Source of the DNA: Candidatus Aminicenantes bacterium JdFR-78
Lineage (GTDB): Bacteria; Acidobacteriota; Aminicenantia; JdFR-78
NCBI GenBank assembly: GCA_002010665.1
Contig: MTON01000024.1
Location: forward strand, 206,072 to 268,811
Direction of reading: 5' to 3'
DNA length: 62,740 nt
Made by a program: the position numbers and the translations under genes. Positions 5,844-61,027 of this stretch are shown here, one piece after another. The notes beneath the pieces were generated by a model. It did not search any database, was not told the origin of the DNA, and worked only from the letters and a program-made list of their open reading frames with translations. Positions within the stretch are counted from its first letter, which is position 1. The number at the start of each line of letters is the position of its first letter.

Positions 5844-5872
5844 TTTACTAAATACTTAATGTATGCTATAGA
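5844..5872 (+). promoter_or_regulatory. Promoter for PASTA gene, probably leaderless
   Basis: TTTACT, 17 nt and TATAGA end only 12 nt before ATG 5885. There is no Shine-Dalgarno in the interval, so the transcript would start about 5 nt before the ATG. Confidence 0.4.
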
Positions 5873-5884
5873 TAAAAGATAAAA

Positions 5885-6610
5885 ATGGGAATACTGAAAG
5901 TTGAAAAAATAGTAAAATTAGCAATATGGTTCCTATCTCTAATAGCTTTAATGCTTTTTACAACTCTAATAACAATGAAAATAATATTAAAGGAAGATGT
6001 TGTAAGAGTTCCAGATTTAAAAGGTAAATCAGTGGATGAAGCAAGAGAAGAACTTGCAAACATAGGATTATATCTTGTCCAAAAAGCAACTAAATTCAGT
6101 ATGAATGTACCCTTTGGTAAAATTATGGAACAAGAACCTGAACCTGGCTCTAAAATAAAAAGAAATAAAGAAGTAAAGGTAATTGTAAGTGCAGGAAGGG
6201 AAAGAGTTAAAGTACCTAATCTAATCGGTAAAGATCTAATGGAAATAAAAGAAATTCTAAAAAAATCAAATTTAAGAAGGGGGTTAATTGTTCAGACCCA
6301 CTCACCAAAATTCAGTGCTGGAAGGATAATTGCTCAAAGTCCAGAGCCTGGATTAGAAGTAGAAAGTGGAAGCCGGATAAGTCTTCTTGTAAGTCAAGGA
6401 TACGAGGAAGAAAAATATATAATGCCGGATTTAATCGGAAAAAAGTTAGAGACAACAATTCCATTACTTCAGAAATTGGGTTTTAAAATAGGAATTATCA
6501 GATATACATATTACCCTGGATTAGAACCGGGAATTATAATAAAACAGCTTCCATTGAGTGGTTACAGAGTCTATAAAAGCAATTTAATCTCCTTGGAGGT
6601 AAGCAAATAA
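5885..6610 (+). CDS. Membrane-anchored three-PASTA-domain protein
   Basis: The 241-aa protein has one N-terminal transmembrane helix (about residues 13-33), then three PASTA domains at roughly 38-103, 104-171 and 172-241. Each opens with VPDLKGK/VPNLIGK/MPDLIGK-type turns and contains a PxPG-like loop. PASTA domains bind muropeptides or beta-lactam-like ligands and usually sit on the extracellular side of Ser/Thr kinases or PBPs. Here no catalytic domain is attached. The stop overlaps the rpe start (TAATG), so the two are translationally coupled, and the gene heads the operon with rpe and the epimerase. The exact role is unknown; a periplasmic cell-wall sensor or scaffold is inferred. Confidence 0.85.
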   Translation: MGILKVEKIVKLAIWFLSLIALMLFTTLITMKIILKEDVVRVPDLKGKSVDEAREELANIGLYLVQKATKFSMNVPFGKIMEQEPEPGSKIKRNKEVKVIVSAGRERVKVPNLIGKDLMEIKEILKKSNLRRGLIVQTHSPKFSAGRIIAQSPEPGLEVESGSRISLLVSQGYEEEKYIMPDLIGKKLETTIPLLQKLGFKIGIIRYTYYPGLEPGIIIKQLPLSGYRVYKSNLISLEVSK

Positions 6611-15601: not shown

Positions 15602-16657
15602 CTATTTATGTCTCAATTGCTTTTTTAGTTCTTCCAATTTTTCTTTAAGACTTTTATCCTCTGGTTTTAGTTTCACTGCTTTTTCAAGAATTTTCACTGC
15701 CTCTGGATAATTTTTCAATTTTTCGTTTATGTTAGCGATGAGCAAGAGAAGCGATAAATTTTCAGAATCAATTTTGAGACCTTCTTTAGCATATGAAAGT
15801 GCTTTATTTAAATCCTTCCTATAATTTAAGTAGAAATATGCAATTGAAAAATAAAGATATGAATTTTCAGGTTTGTTTTTTAACTCATTTTTTAAAAAAT
15901 TCTCCGCATCATCGAGTTTATTTAAATCTCTATAGGCACGAAGCATCCATGAAAGGGCTCCTTGACCATAGTCAGATTCTGGATATTTAAGAAAGAGTTC
16001 TTTCCAGTATTTCAATCCCTTTTCAGGATTCTCCTTAACACGGGAATAATATCTTCCAAGAACGAATAGAGCATTATCAGTATAGTCTGATGAATTTTCA
16101 GGGTCTAAATCAATTATTCTTGTCAAAAGCTCTATTCCTTTTTTCTCGTCACCTCTCTGGAGAACCCTCTGCCCTACTTCAAAAAGTAATTCTGGATTAT
16201 CCAGGTCCTTTTCCAGTTTCTTTTGGAGCTCTGGTAATGGGTCTTTCCCTTTTGTGTATTTCTTCAAAAGTTTTTCAAACCATTCCTTTCCTGCATAACC
16301 AATAATCCTGTCAATCTCCTTTCCACTTGGAGCAAGCAAAACAACTGTTGGAAGACTTATAATTCTATATTTTCTCTTTATTTTCTGACCATAGGAAGTA
16401 TCAAAATCAACCTCAACACAGATGAAATCCTTCAGAAGTTTCTCTCCAAATTCAGTTTCAAAAATTTCCTTTTTCATCTTCTGGCAGTATGGACACCACT
16501 CTGCTGTAACAGCCATGAATATATTTTTATTCTCTTTCGTTGCTATGGATAGGGCTTTTTCCACATTATTAATGAACTTAACCTCTGAAAACATATAAAT
16601 TCCTGAAATTAATAGCAGGAAAACAACTAACATGCATACCAGTTTTATCGCTTTCAT
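15602..16657 (-). CDS. Exported thioredoxin-fold protein with TPR repeats
   Basis: ATG 16657 is the start: AGGAGGAGGAG directly precedes it, and the more upstream in-frame ATG at 16678 overlaps the promoter -10 box. The 351-aa product has a signal peptide or anchor (residues 5-22), then a thioredoxin-like domain with AEWCPYCQKMKK (C55/C58) like the DUF255/thioredoxin_7 group. Four to five TPR motifs follow from about residue 140. It likely handles disulfides of periplasmic clients while the TPRs bind partners. The CPYC motif is glutaredoxin-like in composition. Confidence 0.85.
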   Translation of the reverse strand: MKAIKLVCMLVVFLLLISGIYMFSEVKFINNVEKALSIATKENKNIFMAVTAEWCPYCQKMKKEIFETEFGEKLLKDFICVEVDFDTSYGQKIKRKYRIISLPTVVLLAPSGKEIDRIIGYAGKEWFEKLLKKYTKGKDPLPELQKKLEKDLDNPELLFEVGQRVLQRGDEKKGIELLTRIIDLDPENSSDYTDNALFVLGRYYSRVKENPEKGLKYWKELFLKYPESDYGQGALSWMLRAYRDLNKLDDAENFLKNELKNKPENSYLYFSIAYFYLNYRKDLNKALSYAKEGLKIDSENLSLLLLIANINEKLKNYPEAVKILEKAVKLKPEDKSLKEKLEELKKQLRHK

Positions 16658-16676
16658 CTCCTCCTCCTTCCTAAGC

Positions 16677-16706
16677 ATTATATTTAATTAACTAAATAAA
16701 AGTCAA
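16677..16706 (-). promoter_or_regulatory. Sigma70-like promoter of the thioredoxin-TPR gene
   Basis: On the minus strand, TTGACT is followed by 18 nt and TATAAT. The predicted start near 16670 leaves a leader of about 13 nt that is almost entirely the Shine-Dalgarno. Its position over ATG 16678 is what decides the downstream start codon. Confidence 0.6.
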
Positions 16707-16778
16707 TTTTGATTTTAAACTAATCCCTGATGAAAGTTTTAAAAAAATTAGAATTATATGTTATTATTTATAATGATA

Positions 16779-32776: not shown

Positions 32777-32805
32777 TTGACAAACAAGATTTTTTAAGTT
32801 AGTTT
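32777..32805 (+). promoter_or_regulatory. Promoter of the GT87-like gene, probably leaderless
   Basis: Consensus TTGACA, 17 nt and TAGTTT end 10 nt before ATG 32816, with no Shine-Dalgarno between. This also argues against the in-frame TTG at 32804, which lies in the -10 box. Confidence 0.5.
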
Positions 32806-32815
32806 GAAATTCAAA

Positions 32816-33952
32816 ATGGGTAAAAATATTAAAAAAGCAGTCCTCATTGCAATGATTTTGCTATTATTATTCCCCCTTTTTGAATTCAAAATTCGTCATA
32901 ATATGGTGGATTTTGAGGTCTGTTACAAAGCAGGGAAAAGATTTATAAAAGGAGAAATTTTATACCAGTTGGAAGACGGACACTATCAATTCAAATATCC
33001 TCCCTTTTACTCCTTTATTGTTACTCCTATATCAATATTTCCATTATATTTTGCTAAATTAATTTGGTATTATTTGATTCTAATATTCATATTTTTCATT
33101 TTCTATTTCTCATATACTTTGATACCGGGAAATGAAAAAAAATGGGAAGTCTTAATTATTCCAACTTTATTAATCTTGGCGAAATTTTATGGAAGAGAAC
33201 TTGATTTAGGACAAGCCAATGCTTTTCTCGTATTTTTAATTTTAACATCAATTTACTACACAATTAAAGGAAAAGAAAAAATTGCTGGAATTTCTCTTGG
33301 ACTTGCTTCTGCTGTGAAACCATATGCATTGATATTCTTCCCTTATTTTCTTTTTAGAAAAAAATTCAAGATTTTTTTCATAAGCTCTGTTTTTTTTATT
33401 TTTGCATTACTCTTTCCTTCAATTCGATATGGATGGCAGGGAAATATTGAATTATTAAAGAAATGGCAGTATACATTGTCTCTTTCAACTCCAAAATTAT
33501 TTAATTCTCAAGACAATGTTTCATTTTTTGGATTTTTTTCGAAATTAATTTTCCAAGATAGAATAGATCTGATTTATATAAGCTCCCTGATATCTATAAT
33601 TACATTCTTTGTACTTTTCATTCTTATTGCAAGAAGAAAAATTAATAGAATTACCTTTCTCTTGGATTGTTCCATTTTACTTATTTATATCCCTCTTTTT
33701 TCTCCTCTTGGATGGGATTATATATTCCTAACCTCAACACTTGGAATTATGCTTTTGATTTACAAGATAAACCAATTCTCTATTCCTTTTAGATATTTTT
33801 TAATTCTCAATTTTATAATGATCGGTGCTACTCTTTATGATATAATGGGACGGCAACTTTATTCTAAGTTCATGCAGTTGTCAATTTTAACTATTAATTT
33901 TTTAATAATTATTATATATCTGGCTATTTTAAGAATTAAAAATTCTGATTGA
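32816..33952 (+). CDS. Polytopic glycosyltransferase, GT87/DUF2029-like
   Basis: The 378-aa membrane protein has 8-10 hydrophobic segments and the GT87 (mannosyltransferase/arabinofuranosyltransferase-C-like) pattern. After the first helix come VDFEVCYKAGKRFIKGE, LYQ and then FKYPPFYSFIVTPIS, with an LGQANAFLVFL helix near 130 and ASAVKPYALIFFP near 155. Such enzymes use polyprenyl-phosphate sugars at the outer face of the inner membrane. The acceptor is unknown. Confidence 0.75.
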   Translation: MGKNIKKAVLIAMILLLLFPLFEFKIRHNMVDFEVCYKAGKRFIKGEILYQLEDGHYQFKYPPFYSFIVTPISIFPLYFAKLIWYYLILIFIFFIFYFSYTLIPGNEKKWEVLIIPTLLILAKFYGRELDLGQANAFLVFLILTSIYYTIKGKEKIAGISLGLASAVKPYALIFFPYFLFRKKFKIFFISSVFFIFALLFPSIRYGWQGNIELLKKWQYTLSLSTPKLFNSQDNVSFFGFFSKLIFQDRIDLIYISSLISIITFFVLFILIARRKINRITFLLDCSILLIYIPLFSPLGWDYIFLTSTLGIMLLIYKINQFSIPFRYFLILNFIMIGATLYDIMGRQLYSKFMQLSILTINFLIIIIYLAILRIKNSD

Positions 33953-33977
33953 CTTTGAAATAAGCTTTTCTTATTAT
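33949..33977 (+). promoter_or_regulatory. Promoter of the DUF2085 gene, probably leaderless
   Basis: TTGACT overlaps the stop of the GT87-like gene; 17 nt later TATTAT ends 7 nt before ATG 33985. No Shine-Dalgarno fits into that gap. Confidence 0.5.
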
Positions 33978-33984
33978 AAGAAAA

Positions 33985-34491
33985 ATGAAAAAATTATCTT
34001 ATTTTTCAGTTCTAAGTATTACTTTTATGTGTGTAACTCTTATTTTCCTTGCACCTATTCTTGTATATTTCAAAAGCAAGTATGGATTTTTAATATATTT
34101 TATTTTCTCCCCTTTATGCCATCAAATATCCGAGAGAAGTTTCCATATATTTGGATTTCAATTAGCAGTTTGCTCTAGGTGTACAGGTATTTATCTTGGA
34201 TTGTTTATTGGAACTATTCTCTATCCCCTTATTTTTTCTATAAAAAGACAAAGAATTCCTTCTTTTAAACTTTTTATTTTATTTTCTTTTCCCATGGGCT
34301 TAGATGTCATTGGAAATATTTTAAATTTATGGATTTCTTCTGGTATAATTCGATTTTTAACTGGATTTATTTTTGGACTTCTCCTCCCTTTTTATTTAAT
34401 ACCTGGAATAATGGATCTTGCAGAAATAAAATTTAATTTTAATAAAAATTTTATAAAAATAGAAAATGAAAATAAAATTTCCAATTACTAA
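33985..34491 (+). CDS. DUF2085 membrane protein
   Basis: The 168-aa protein has four hydrophobic helices and the DUF2085 signature FSPLCHQISERSFHIFG, then AVCSRCTGIYLGL. The conserved Cys/His residues suggest a metal or redox site, but the family has no proven function. It sits in a run of small membrane-protein genes. Confidence 0.85.
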   Translation: MKKLSYFSVLSITFMCVTLIFLAPILVYFKSKYGFLIYFIFSPLCHQISERSFHIFGFQLAVCSRCTGIYLGLFIGTILYPLIFSIKRQRIPSFKLFILFSFPMGLDVIGNILNLWISSGIIRFLTGFIFGLLLPFYLIPGIMDLAEIKFNFNKNFIKIENENKISNY

Positions 34492-47835: not shown

Positions 47836-47879
47836 TTATGCACAATTCCTGTCTTCAAAAATAAATATAATTGTGCTAA
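47836..47879. promoter_or_regulatory. CIRCE-like dyad with long spacer between hrcA and ldcA
   Basis: GCACAATT (47840-47847) and its perfect complement AATTGTGC (47869-47876) are separated by 21 nt. Read on the minus strand the outer edges are TTAGCAC and GTGCATAA, close to the CIRCE half-sites TTAGCACTC/GAGTGCTAA, but the spacing is far greater than the usual 9 nt. It touches the -35 region of hrcA and the -10 of ldcA. Confidence 0.45.
47866..47871 (+). promoter_or_regulatory. -10 box of ldcA, probably leaderless
   Basis: TATAAT ends 9 nt before ATG 47881, with no Shine-Dalgarno in between. No good -35 is seen. Confidence 0.4.
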
Positions 47880-47880
47880 T

Positions 47881-48804
47881 ATGCTTTCTCCTATGAAAAA
47901 GCCCAAAATTTTAAAAAAGAATGATGTAATTGGAATTTTCGCTCCCGCAAGTCCAGTTAAAAGAGAATTCTTTCAGAAAGGAATATCTGAACTTGAAAAA
48001 TTTGGTTTTAAAATTAAATATTCTGAGAATATTTTTCAAAAGAAAAAATTTTTAGCAGGCGATGATTTAACCAGAGCTCAGGAGCTTATTGAATTCTTAA
48101 AAGATAATAAAGTAAAAGCCTTAATCGGAGCTCGAGGAGGTTATGGTTCTATTAGATTAATTCCTATTCTTGAGAAAATTGATTTTAGCGAAATAAAACC
48201 CAAAATATTAATTGGATCAAGTGATTTAACTTATTTACTCCTTTATTTTAATCAGAAATACAAGTGGGTGGTCTTTTATGGACCTATGGCATGTTCATCC
48301 ATTGCAAAAGGAAATTACGATAGGAAAATCTTCCTTCATGTTTTAACTATATCTTCTCCTCTTCCTCCATTAATTAATGGTAAAGTAATTAAACATGGAA
48401 AAGCAATTGGAATTTTGACCGGAGGTTGCCTTTCTCTCATCTGTTCAACCATTGGAACTCCCTATGAAATTGAAACAACTAATAAGATTTTAATTTTAGA
48501 AGACCATCAGGAAAAACCCTATCGTATAGATCGTTATTTATGGCAACTTAAAATGGCAGGAAAATTTGAAAAAATCAAAGGAGTTGTTTTTGGAGAAATG
48601 AAAGATTGCTTCCAACATCCAGAGCAAGGCTATGAACTTGAAGACATTATAAATGATTTCTTCCAGGAATATGATTTTCCTGTTCTTTATGGTTTCCCTT
48701 TTGGACACAGTGAAGAAACTTTTACCCTGCCCCTTGGAATTAAAGTAGAAATTGATTCATCACTTCCTGGAATAAAATTTCTTGAGGAGGCAACAGTAAA
48801 TTAA
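47881..48804 (+). CDS. ldcA: Muramoyltetrapeptide LD-carboxypeptidase (S66)
   Basis: The 307-aa cytosolic peptidase removes D-Ala from the recycled tetrapeptide. S66 features are IFAPASPV, GARGGYGS near 83 and the nucleophile S114 in IGSSDLTYL, with Glu and His in GGCLSLICSTIGTP and GHSEETFTLPLG. ATG 47881 is chosen because the -10 box is close; ATG 47893 is an alternative. Mpl follows after 1 nt, and the two together form a tripeptide-recycling route. Confidence 0.92.
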   Translation: MLSPMKKPKILKKNDVIGIFAPASPVKREFFQKGISELEKFGFKIKYSENIFQKKKFLAGDDLTRAQELIEFLKDNKVKALIGARGGYGSIRLIPILEKIDFSEIKPKILIGSSDLTYLLLYFNQKYKWVVFYGPMACSSIAKGNYDRKIFLHVLTISSPLPPLINGKVIKHGKAIGILTGGCLSLICSTIGTPYEIETTNKILILEDHQEKPYRIDRYLWQLKMAGKFEKIKGVVFGEMKDCFQHPEQGYELEDIINDFFQEYDFPVLYGFPFGHSEETFTLPLGIKVEIDSSLPGIKFLEEATVN

Positions 48805-57672: not shown

Positions 57673-57872
57673 TTATTTTTTTAAAATTTCATTTATCTGT
57701 TTTAAAAATTCTTCAAAATCATTTATATTTGCTAACGAAGAGTATAAATATTCTTTTTATCTTTCAGAAACGCTTCTTCTTCCAGAGCTATCAAAGATTT
57801 TATTTCAGAAATTGTATCCAGAAGGTCCTTTTCCAGAGTTTTGATTTTTTCAATGTTTATTTCTTTATGCAT
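57673..57872 (-). pseudogene. Remnant of a hepT (HEPN/DUF86) toxin gene
   Basis: An ATG at 57872, overlapping the mntA stop by 16 nt, opens a 46-codon frame whose product (IEKIKTLEKDLLDTISEIK, then EEEAFLKDKKNIYTLR) is a HEPN/DUF86-like N terminus. It stops at TAG 57732. A shifted frame to TAA 57673 reads NINDFEEFLKQINEILKK, a DUF86-type C terminus. The central part with the RX4-6H RNase motif is missing. About half of the usual ~400 bp is left. Confidence 0.75.
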
Positions 57873-58279
57873 TCCATAAGCTCTTTGAAATAGGATTTAG
57901 AAAATTCATAATAATCCATGTATTCCAGTCCAACTTTTTCTAAAAAATCAAGTCTCAAAAGCCTATCTCTTTCAAAAAGCAAAGTGCCTTCATTTATCAC
58001 TGAAAACTGGAATCCAATGGGTGCATAATTAATTACTTTAAAATCCACATTAAATCCAGTCTCTCTTTCAATTTCAGAGGTTATATCAAGTTCAAAATCA
58101 AATACTTTATCCTCAGGTATAAGACAATACCCAGCTATATCAATATCTCTGAAAGGCTGGAGCCCAAATGAACCGTGCAAATAGGCAAAAGATATTTCCT
58201 TATGTTTTAAAAGAACTGATATAATTTTTTGTTTTATCTTCTCAATTTCCTCAGGGGACAATTCAAACCTTTGTGCCAT
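57857..58279 (-). CDS. MntA-type minimal nucleotidyltransferase (antitoxin of a HepT-MntA pair)
   Basis: The 140-aa protein has the nucleotidyltransferase motif GS (36-37) followed by DIDIAGY with D45/D47, shorter than the classical spacing (GS-X7-DxD). Family members AMPylate and so neutralise HepT (type VII toxin-antitoxin). The partner hepT downstream is broken. Start ATG 58279 is preferred to GTG 58282 because the promoter -10 box is only 7 nt away. Confidence 0.82.
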   Translation of the reverse strand: MAQRFELSPEEIEKIKQKIISVLLKHKEISFAYLHGSFGLQPFRDIDIAGYCLIPEDKVFDFELDITSEIERETGFNVDFKVINYAPIGFQFSVINEGTLLFERDRLLRLDFLEKVGLEYMDYYEFSKSYFKELMECIKK

Positions 58280-58286
58280 CACGCTA

Positions 58287-58315
58287 AAGATAGCACAGGT
58301 AAAATAGATTTACAA
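58287..58315 (-). promoter_or_regulatory. Promoter of mntA, probably leaderless
   Basis: On the minus strand, TTGTAA, 17 nt and TATCTT end 7 nt before ATG 58279, with no Shine-Dalgarno. Confidence 0.45.
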
Positions 58316-58341
58316 GAATTTTAGAATAATTCAATTCATAG

Positions 58342-58370
58342 TTGACTTAAAAATTTGAAAGTGCTATTTT
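58342..58370 (+). promoter_or_regulatory. Promoter of metF, probably leaderless
   Basis: TTGACT, 17 nt and TATTTT end 9 nt before ATG 58380; the gap is CATTCTAAA, without a Shine-Dalgarno. It is divergent from the mntA promoter. No SAM or B12 riboswitch fits in the short interval. Confidence 0.5.
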
Positions 58371-58379
58371 CATTCTAAA

Positions 58380-60221
58380 ATGAAAAAAAAGTTTTTAGAA
58401 TTACTGAAAGACAGAGTTCTCCTCTGCGACGGTGCAATGGGCACCATGCTTTACAATAAAGGAGTTTATCTTAATAGCTGTTTTGATGAATTGAATCTTT
58501 CCAATCCAGAACTTGTGAAAAAGATTCATCAGGAATATGTGGATAGCGGTGTGGATATAATAGAAACAAATACATTTGGAGCAAATCGCTATAAATTAAA
58601 AAAATTTGGTCTGGAGGAAAAAGTAAAGGAAATCAATATTGCAGGAGCAAAAATTGCACGAGAAATTGCACAGAATAAAGTTTTTGTTGCTGGTTCTATA
58701 GGACCTCTTGGATTGAAAATTGAGCCATGGGGACCAACTTCTTTTGAAGAAGCAGAAGAAGCTTTTTATGAACAGGCTTCTGGATTGCTGGAAGGAGGAG
58801 TGGATTTATTCATTCTTGAGACATTTTCAGATGTCAATGAAATACATCAAGCAATAAAAGCAGTAAAAAGGCTCTGTGACCTGCCTATTATAGCTCAGAT
58901 GACCATTGAGGAAGATGGAAACAGTCTATATGGAACTTCTCCTGAAGTTTTCACAAGAAGACTTGAGGAATGGGGAGCAGATGTAATTGGAGTAAATTGC
59001 AGTGTTGGACCTGCTGCTACTTTAGCATGTATTGAAAGAATGGTTAAAGTTACTGATAAACCACTCTCTGCAATGCCAAATGCAGGTGTTCCAAGAAATG
59101 TGGAGGGAAGAAATATTTACTTATGCTCACCTGAGTATTTAGCAGAGTATGCAAAGAGATTTATTCTGACAGGAGTGAAGATTGTTGGAGGATGCTGTGG
59201 AACAACTCCTGCTCATATAAGAGCAGTAAGAAGAGCAATCAGAGCTCTTCAACCAGAGAAAAAGGTCTTTCCGAAAATTGAGATAAAAGAAATTGAGAAA
59301 AAACCTGAGATAAAACCTGTAGAAAGAAGAGAAAAATCACAGCTTGCAAGGAAACTTTGCGATAAGGAGTTTGTAATAAGTGTTGAGATTGTTCCTCCAA
59401 GGGGATTTGACCCCTCCCCTGCTCTTGAAAAGGCAAAGTGGTTAAAGGAAATGGGAATTGATTGTGTGAATATACCAGATGGTCCAAGGGCAAGTGCACG
59501 CATGAGTGCAATGTCTTTAGCTGTAATAATAGAAAATAAAGCAGGAATTGAAACAATATTGCACTATACATGTAGAGATAGGAATCTTCTTGGTATGCAA
59601 TCTGACCTGCTCGGGGCATATGCTCAGGGATTGAAAAATATCCTTGTTATTACAGGAGACCCACCTAAGATGGGCGATTATCCTGATGCAACAGCGGTTT
59701 TTGATGTTGACTCAATTGGGCTTTGCAATCTGGTGAATGCTTTAAACAGAGGTATTGACCTTGGAGGAAAAGCACTTAAGAAGCCGACTGGTTTTCATCT
59801 TGGAGTTGGAGCAAATCCAGGAGCTATAAATCTGGATTATGAGATAAGGCGTTTTGAATATAAAGTGGAGGCTGGAGCTGAGTTTGCAATCACCCAGCCT
59901 GTATTTGACATTAAGTTATTGGAAAATTTTCTTAAAAGAATTTCCCATTGCAGAATTCCAATTATTGCTGGAATCTGGCCATTGGCGAGTTTACAGAATG
60001 CAGAATTTATGAATAATGAGGTTCCTGGTGCAAGAGTTCCTCCTGAAATCATGGATAGAATGAGAAAAGCAAATGAAAAAGGAAGCGAATTCGCCCGCCA
60101 GGAAGGAATCGCAATTGCCCGAGAAGTCCTCTCTGAAATTAAAGATATGGTCGAAGGAGTTCAGATTAGCCCTCCGTTCGGAAGAGTAGAAGTGGTGAAG
60201 GAGATAATTTCGGTTTTGTGA
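58380..60221 (+). CDS. Bifunctional homocysteine S-methyltransferase / 5,10-methylenetetrahydrofolate reductase
   Basis: The 613-aa protein has an N-terminal homocysteine S-methyltransferase domain (about 1-290; LCDGAMGTML, zinc cysteines C207, C272 and C273 in GVNCSVGP and GGCCGTTPAHI) and a C-terminal MTHFR domain (about 325-613; VEIVPPRGFDPS near 353, LLVITGDPP-like ILVITGDPPKMGD, GVGANPGA and a flavin-site AGAEFAITQPVFD). The fusion is known in Firmicutes and other lineages (YitJ type). It supplies methyl groups for methionine; MetH/B12 partners are outside the window. Its 3' end is partly copied at 61237-61284. Confidence 0.92.
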   Translation: MKKKFLELLKDRVLLCDGAMGTMLYNKGVYLNSCFDELNLSNPELVKKIHQEYVDSGVDIIETNTFGANRYKLKKFGLEEKVKEINIAGAKIAREIAQNKVFVAGSIGPLGLKIEPWGPTSFEEAEEAFYEQASGLLEGGVDLFILETFSDVNEIHQAIKAVKRLCDLPIIAQMTIEEDGNSLYGTSPEVFTRRLEEWGADVIGVNCSVGPAATLACIERMVKVTDKPLSAMPNAGVPRNVEGRNIYLCSPEYLAEYAKRFILTGVKIVGGCCGTTPAHIRAVRRAIRALQPEKKVFPKIEIKEIEKKPEIKPVERREKSQLARKLCDKEFVISVEIVPPRGFDPSPALEKAKWLKEMGIDCVNIPDGPRASARMSAMSLAVIIENKAGIETILHYTCRDRNLLGMQSDLLGAYAQGLKNILVITGDPPKMGDYPDATAVFDVDSIGLCNLVNALNRGIDLGGKALKKPTGFHLGVGANPGAINLDYEIRRFEYKVEAGAEFAITQPVFDIKLLENFLKRISHCRIPIIAGIWPLASLQNAEFMNNEVPGARVPPEIMDRMRKANEKGSEFARQEGIAIAREVLSEIKDMVEGVQISPPFGRVEVVKEIISVL

Positions 60222-60390: not shown

Positions 60391-60741
60391 TTATTCATCA
60401 GTGCCCAGTTTTGCAAGAATGTTTTCTATCTTTTCTTTTAATTCTGGGACTTTATTCTTAATAATATCCCATATAATTTCTGTGTCTATGCCAAAATAAA
60501 CATGAATAAGAATATCTCTTAGCCCTCCGATCTTTTTCCATTCTACATCTGGATTGTCTTTCTTAATACTTTCAGGTATGTTTTTTGTCGCTTCTCCTAT
60601 AATTTCAAGATTTCTTACTACCCCATCTTGAATTAACTCATTCTTCTTAAATTCTTCCAAACTAATATTTTCTGTGTATCTATTAATCTTATTTATTGCT
60701 CTAAGAATATCTTTGAGGTATGCTTTATATTCCCGTGGCAT
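60391..60741 (-). CDS. HepT (HEPN/DUF86) toxin
   Basis: The 116-aa HEPN protein (AYLKDILRAINKINRYTENI, then GEATKNIPESIK) keeps the catalytic RX4H motif, R75 to H80 in LRDILIHVYFGID. It is a predicted RNase toxin of the type VII system. It overlaps the mntA start region by 17 nt, so the antitoxin is made first. In contrast to the pair at 57.7-58.3 kb, both genes here are intact. Confidence 0.88.
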   Translation of the reverse strand: MPREYKAYLKDILRAINKINRYTENISLEEFKKNELIQDGVVRNLEIIGEATKNIPESIKKDNPDVEWKKIGGLRDILIHVYFGIDTEIIWDIIKNKVPELKEKIENILAKLGTDE

Positions 60742-61027
60742 ACTTCACATTCTCTAATATATTGGATTTTAAATCAGGTTTTATAGTTTCTATAATTACA
60801 AGATCTACTTTACAATTGAATAAGTCCTCTAAAAAGAATTTCAGATCCATATAATTATCAAAAGTTTTCATCCCTTTTTCAAACTCTACTAATATGTCTA
60901 TATCACTTCCTGACTTTTGTTCATTACGAACATATGAACCAAATAAGCCTATTTTCTTAACCCCAAATCTTTTGATTTTTTTCTTATTTTCTTTAATTTT
61001 TTCTAATATTTCATCTGATTTTAACAT
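60725..61027 (-). CDS. MntA-type minimal nucleotidyltransferase (antitoxin)
   Basis: The 100-aa protein has GLFGSYVRNEQKSGSDIDILVEF with the catalytic GS-X10-DxD pattern (G30, S31, D42, D44). It is expected to AMPylate HepT. GGAGG lies 9 nt before the ATG. It is a different subfamily from the 140-aa protein at 57857. Confidence 0.88.
   Translation of the reverse strand: MLKSDEILEKIKENKKKIKRFGVKKIGLFGSYVRNEQKSGSDIDILVEFEKGMKTFDNYMDLKFFLEDLFNCKVDLVIIETIKPDLKSNILENVKYATGI

Follow-up and report, generated by a model that had tools for sequence, protein, structure and literature searches.

Divergent promoters predicted to give near-leaderless mntA and metF mRNAs, and a class of Shine-Dalgarno-independent first genes in an Aminicenantes genome

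The gap between the divergent genes mntA and metF probably holds two ordinary housekeeping-sigma promoters, set back to back and each so close to its gene that both mRNAs would be near-leaderless. Across the genome, a class of first genes that have no or almost no leader and are independent of a Shine-Dalgarno (SD) sequence is well supported. The first-pass annotation of this DNA, made from its letters alone, had proposed leaderless mRNAs for a defined set of first genes: the SD-poor class with short promoter-to-start distances stands, whilst strict leaderlessness is not established, and the genes form a gradient rather than a sharp list.

Results

Genome and gene set

The window, i.e. the whole stretch of 62,740 nt that was analysed, covers bases 206072-268811 of contig C1 in a draft genome of 2.53 Mb (42 contigs, 96.79% complete). 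Its GC content is 33.3%, and that of the genome sample used for genome-wide counts is 32.6%; this sample comprises 838.6 kb, or 33% of the genome (contigs C1-C3 and 100 kb of C4). A simple coding-score caller placed 718 genes in it: 168 divergent, 96 codirectional with a gap of more than 80 nt, 99 with a gap of 26-80 nt, 349 internal and 6 at an edge. The divergent and the 96 codirectional genes together make up the 264 first genes. Starts from this caller are partly wrong (e.g. ATGGAGGTAAGGATG), with SD-preceded starts following some of the wrong ones; it also missed the DUF2085 gene discussed below entirely and put the GT87 start at TTG 32804, and the genome counts miss such cases. The draft assembly yielded no 16S rRNA gene, the one that would carry the anti-SD. 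Amongst the 349 internal genes of the sample, the fraction with an SD match of at least 4 nt is 0.58.

Two promoters between mntA and metF

The gap between the two genes measures 100 nt and is organised as follows.

57857-58279, minus strand: mntA-like gene, 140 aa, ATG start, no SD (match of 3 nt)
58287-58292, minus strand: mntA -10 TATCTT, extended (GTGC before it), ending 7 nt before the ATG at 58279; score 4.1
58310-58315, minus strand: mntA -35 TTGTAA, spacer of 17 nt to the -10
58342-58347, plus strand: metF -35 TTGACT, spacer of 17 nt to the -10
58365-58370, plus strand: metF -10 TATTTT, extended (GTGC before it), ending 9 nt before the ATG at 58380; score 7.2
58380-60221, plus strand: metF, 613 aa, ATG start, no SD (match of 3 nt)

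Every hexamer, spacer and distance that had been reported for this pair was found in place, and the claim that neither gene has an SD is borne out. The metF product is a fusion of homocysteine S-methyltransferase and methylenetetrahydrofolate reductase (PF02574 + PF02219); the mntA-like product is a nucleotidyltransferase with a Polbeta domain (PF18765), for which a GTG at 58282, one codon upstream and 4 nt from the -10, offers an alternative start. The extended -10 GTGCTAT[C/T]TT is common to both promoters (repeat I3).

By a model trained on the genome itself, the metF promoter is strong and that of mntA modest. Scores of at least 7.2 occur at 0.14%, and of at least 4.1 at 0.78%, of first-gene upstream positions; over the eight positions from 5 to 12 nt, this gives chances of about 1% and about 6%, respectively. 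Matches to the promoter consensus between 57000 and 60000 number 9, against 9.2 expected from shuffles, so that no single site reaches significance on consensus matching alone; the support for these sites is the genome-wide pattern.

RNA usually starts about 7 nt after the -10. By this rule, mntA transcription would begin 0-1 nt before the AUG and metF transcription about 3 nt before it, with AAA as the predicted leader. Such RNA is too short for any SD, and the ribosome would therefore have to use an AUG at or almost at the 5' end, much as on leaderless mRNAs. A minority of first genes, mostly divergent, would share this arrangement, with internal and longer-leader genes relying mostly on an SD. 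We infer that these promoters are the ones in use, where the RNA begins and how the ribosome binds.

The gap also contains a perfect 10-bp inverted repeat (ATTTTAGAAT/ATTCTAAAAT, window 58318-58381), its arms 44 nt apart and one of them at the metF start, which is possibly an operator or else a product of chance, being unremarkable in AT-rich DNA. A search for a regulatory RNA upstream of metF, with Rfam at gathering thresholds, returned only one tRNA in the window. The called neighbours of mntA are metF and a gene for a PCMT-family methyltransferase, with no HepT. Just past metF, on the minus strand at 60391-61027, a gene for a HepT-like RNase (PF01934) adjoins one for a nucleotidyltransferase (PF01909), and these two likely form a complete HepT/MntA toxin-antitoxin pair. 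Elsewhere in the genome, a second mntA-like gene (G000:C3:25117-25560, minus strand; 34% identity) has a -10 ending 7 nt before its ATG and an SD match of at most 3 nt; mntA homologs elsewhere and this paralog are only 27-34% identical, too distant for a verdict on conservation.

Other sites in the window

Four further genes of the window had been credited with the same design.

5844-5872, plus strand: PASTA gene, promoter-like TTTACT-N17-TATAGA, 12 nt before the ATG at 5885; score 4.1, weaker
32777-32805, plus strand: GT87 promoter TTGACA-N17-TAGTTT, 10 nt before the ATG at 32816; score 7.2
33949-33977, plus strand: DUF2085 promoter TTGACT-N17-TATTAT, 7 nt before the ATG at 33985; score 7.7, strong
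47866-47871, plus strand: ldcA TATAAT, 9 nt before the ATG at 47881; score -0.16

The design stands firmly at the DUF2085 gene, which follows GT87 after only 32 nt, on the same strand, and would need a promoter of its own. At GT87 it holds only with a corrected start: the longest open reading frame begins at TTG 32804, which overlaps the gene's own -10 box, so that the promoter fits only ATG 32816, and this is the likelier start. The PASTA site is the weaker case, and at ldcA the design falls away, as no -35 was found and a full promoter is not supported; the best-scoring promoter site of ldcA lies 76 nt away (score 4.1). For metF, mntA, DUF2085, GT87 (at ATG 32816), PASTA and ldcA alike, the SD match is only 3 nt. 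Between the -10 and the start codon lie 7 nt for mntA and DUF2085, 9 for metF, 10 for GT87 and 12 for PASTA, against some 6-7 nt in leaderless genes elsewhere.

The contrast that had been drawn with SD-bearing genes is real: the 20 first genes of the window comprise 8 with an SD match of at least 5 nt, 1 with 4 nt and 11 with at most 3 nt. Both genes of a second divergent pair (window 15602-16758) are without SD; by eye, the minus-strand gene has TTGACT and, overlapping the ATG of the longest open reading frame, TATAAT, and its real start may lie downstream of that ATG.

Distance from promoter to start across the genome

Expectation-maximisation (EM), started from the E. coli consensus with a flat position prior, was run on the 168 divergent first genes and retained TTGACA-N17-TATAAT; the same procedure on internal genes or on mononucleotide-shuffled upstreams lost the promoter motif. 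The position posterior of the first run rises from about 6 nt to a maximum at 8-9 nt (13.2 units), followed by a second, wider rise at 30-41 nt; 1.0 units fall at 4-5 nt and 3.1 of 167.8 units below 6 nt. A count of bare TAnnnT by distance with naive starts gave no clear peak in this genome because, at 33% GC, such hexamers abound, and the -35 and -10 were therefore scored jointly.

Could the mRNAs be leaderless in the strict sense? The peak at 8-9 nt, within a range of short distances that is broadly 6-12 nt, would agree with a polymerase that starts 8-10 nt after the -10, and such a reading would refine the near-leaderless explanation rather than exclude it. We regard it as doubtful, as it departs from the usual start at about 7 nt, as the corresponding class of the relative G012 (see below) lies at 6-7 nt, and as distances here extend to 15 nt, mostly without SD, which calls for real short leaders. 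In 60 longer-leader promoters, the frequency of A is highest 4 and 9 nt past the -10 (0.55) and that of G at position 7 (0.27), which does not fix the RNA start.

Strong promoters near the start exceed the shuffled expectation. Of the 264 first genes, 22 have their best promoter at 5-12 nt with a score of at least 6, the figure for mononucleotide shuffles being 0.6; the model behind this count was trained on some of the same genes, hence we repeated it with two halves cross-scored, which gave 19 of 264 against 0.30 in dinucleotide-preserving shuffles. When the choice of start was loosened to all ATG and GTG codons within 75 nt of the longest-ORF start, the short-distance class took in 24 of 168 divergent genes, 5 of 96 codirectional first genes and 5 of 349 internal genes (divergent versus internal, p=1.3e-8). 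The motifs, their positions, the missing SD and the enrichment over shuffles and internal genes are all direct observations.

These counts weigh against a second reading, in which the promoters lie further away, ordinary leaders without SD are bound by S1 at an A-rich, unstructured start region, and the near motifs are chance products of DNA at 33% GC. Consensus matches around mntA and metF are indeed at chance level, the S1 protein is encoded in the genome (rpsA), and A-rich sequence precedes the starts in all three gene groups compared. However, the excess of strong near sites survives held-out scoring, these sites occur in divergent and rarely in internal genes, and within 128 nt of metF or mntA no site was found that scores higher than the near one; we therefore hold the distant-promoter reading to be improbable. 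A ribosome lacking S1, as a separate cause of SD-free genes, is ruled out by the presence of rpsA.

Shine-Dalgarno sequences and start codons

A comparison of -10-to-ATG distances for genes with and without SD, proposed in the first-pass annotation and made here for 33% of the genome, speaks for its proposal. With a promoter score of at least 4.5 and an SD match of at least 4 nt as thresholds, an SD precedes 8 of 43 genes at 5-16 nt but 42 of 60 at 23-60 nt (p=3e-7), a deficit that is partly forced, since a TATAAT so near leaves little room. At 17-22 nt, where there is some room for an SD, it is still missing more often, being found in 5 of 15 genes (p=0.015). The genome thus accepts promoters at distances that exclude an SD, something not expected of a cell that always needs one. 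Amongst the 43 short-distance genes the share of ATG is 0.91. Many of the predicted short leaders end in AAA or AAAA, but A is frequent ahead of the starts of the other gene groups as well.

That the start codons are simply misplaced, with SD-led starts and normal leaders further downstream, is very unlikely: some naive starts are plainly wrong and are followed by SD-preceded ones, and the TTG of GT87 overlaps its -10, but an in-frame start within 30 codons with an SD match of at least 5 nt exists for only 4 of the 43 short-distance genes against 36 of 221 other first genes, and the next in-frame start of metF is codon 20, past the FLE motif (residues 5-7) that its closest orthologs share or nearly share.

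The class in relatives

Relatives were scanned with the model of the present genome, since EM on G011 reached no promoter. In G012 (51% GC), which belongs to the same taxonomic class, the short-distance group includes 11 of 56 divergent against 2 of 133 internal genes (p=3e-5). No clear excess was found in G011 (divergent 5/76, internal 3/98), nor in the GC-rich G037 (68%), to which the fit of the model is doubtful (divergent 4/126, internal 1/36); G042, at only 113.8 kb and 14 divergent genes, was left out of these counts. Codirectional first genes belong to the class in 1 of 96 cases in G011, 0 of 25 in G012 and 0 of 66 in G037.

The distances differ between the two genomes with a clear class: in G012, 10 of 11 class genes have a distance of 6-7 nt, whereas in the present genome 4 of 24 have one of at most 7 nt (p=5e-5) and most distances are 8-11 nt. 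As 6-7 nt is also the distance in Deinococcus radiodurans, leaders of about 1-5 nt would result in many cases here, which points to a short leader, instead of none, in many genes of this genome. We tentatively posit that the lineage moved from true leaderless mRNAs, with the -10 at 6-7 nt as in G012, to SD-free, ultra-short, A-rich leaders of about 1-8 nt, with initiation between the leaderless and the leadered mode; this is conceivable, though we would not favour it.

Parts of G011, G012, G037 and G042 gave 19 ortholog rows for the 43 short-distance genes, with the alignment starting at residue 1 in 7. Inspected by eye, two of the G037 rows show a hexamer resembling a -10 that ends 6 nt upstream of the closest ATG, and several other rows look SD-led. 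In wider sets of orthologs, TAnnnT at 6-9 nt precedes 7 of 17 DUF2085 starts (3.1 in shuffles, the highest of 300 shuffles reaching 8), 5 of 19 PASTA starts (2.9 in shuffles, not significant) and 9 of 111 metF starts (7.4 in shuffles), counts that omit loci with an alignment beginning after residue 25, no near ATG or GTG, less than 45 nt upstream or duplicate upstreams. An SD match of at least 5 nt was found at 0 of the 17 DUF2085 starts examined, at 0 of the 19 PASTA starts (5 of which have a 4-nt match) and at 22 of the metF starts. By these predictions, the near-leaderless mode is present in part of the taxonomic class, but at metF it is seemingly a local state.

Initiation of metF in the nearest relatives

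The six best matches to the metF product (L001-L006) come from drafts and are 69-73% identical; L001, L003 and L005 are titled Candidatus Aminicenantes and L002 Clostridiales. These matches, together with phylum-wide ones that partly repeat the same Acidobacteria loci, point to Acidobacteriota as the phylum. L004 (the same locus as L102) has an SD and an ATG at the metF start, and in L005 the ATG stands behind a purine-rich stretch. The other four have no ATG, GTG or TTG where metF of the window has its ATG: the position is taken by ATC in L001, L003 and L006 and by ATT in L002, in each case with a good SD 6-7 nt upstream. A stop codon five codons upstream leaves L001 and L003 without a canonical start before the FLE motif; in L006 and L002 a canonical in-frame start is present some 20 or more codons upstream. 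On this sequence evidence, metF is not conserved as a near-leaderless gene, its near relatives apparently using SD sites, and metF of L001, L003 and L006 (AUC) and of L002 (AUU) appears to initiate at a non-canonical codon.

Is this a general habit? SD-preceded ATT, ATC, ATA and CTG codons upstream of SD-less starts were compared with other codons, and general use of such starts was not found in the genome parts examined (9/1111 against 151/16479), of which only G042 (L003) belongs to the four genomes with AUC or AUU metF starts. The counts are 1/480 against 12/4008 in the present genome, 0/209 against 9/2200 in G011, 0/54 against 4/397 in G042 and 3/221 against 82/6945 in G037. They are higher in G012, at 5/147 against 44/2929; in four of its five cases, however, the coding score of the added stretch is negative, and in the fifth it lies just below zero.

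Discussion

Near-leaderless first genes are known in bacteria, including Acidobacteria, and are here added in a little-studied lineage; a search of the open-access literature by title found no paper on initiation in this lineage. Leaderless genes are predicted for 21.6% of bacterial species, according to the part of PMC9581028 drawn on here. In the portions of Zheng et al. (2011, PMC3160421) that concern Acidobacteria, they occur in all three genomes considered, at 9.7-19.4% of genes (13.3% on average). The sigma-70-like TANNNT just upstream, the missing SD and the restriction to a minority of genes are common to those genes, as these portions describe them, and to ours. However, the signal given there sets in some 12 nt upstream of the start codon, which leaves about 6 nt after the -10, whereas the peak here is at 8-9 nt, and the fraction here is lower, with 22 to 32 first genes at 5-12 nt amongst 718, under a stricter test that also needs a -35.

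A similar picture emerges from Deinococcus radiodurans, where, in the excerpts of PMC12340547 used here, a -10 lies about 6-7 nt from the open reading frame in nearly a third of genes. In Deinococcus-Thermus, as in our genome, the -10 abuts the reading frame in place of an SD and some starts needed correction; these excerpts give the motif as TANNNT, most often TACACT, whereas here it is TATAAT with a clear -35. Bacteroidetes and Cyanobacteria offer a third comparison, for which the sections of PMC5397173 drawn on here describe an AT-rich signal at about -20 to -10 of non-SD genes and interpret it as either the Pribnow box of a leaderless mRNA or an S1 site. The AT-rich signal ahead of non-SD genes is shared, but in our genome, unlike in the type those sections describe, the SD is still common and its absence is limited to part of the first genes.

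To conclude, these results extend the range of leaderless-type first genes to an uncultured, AT-rich branch that probably belongs to the Acidobacteriota. They also provide a usable rule for correcting start codons in this genome, e.g. for moving that of GT87 to ATG 32816. Lastly, the metF orthologs present a seeming switch between SD-led and near-leaderless initiation.
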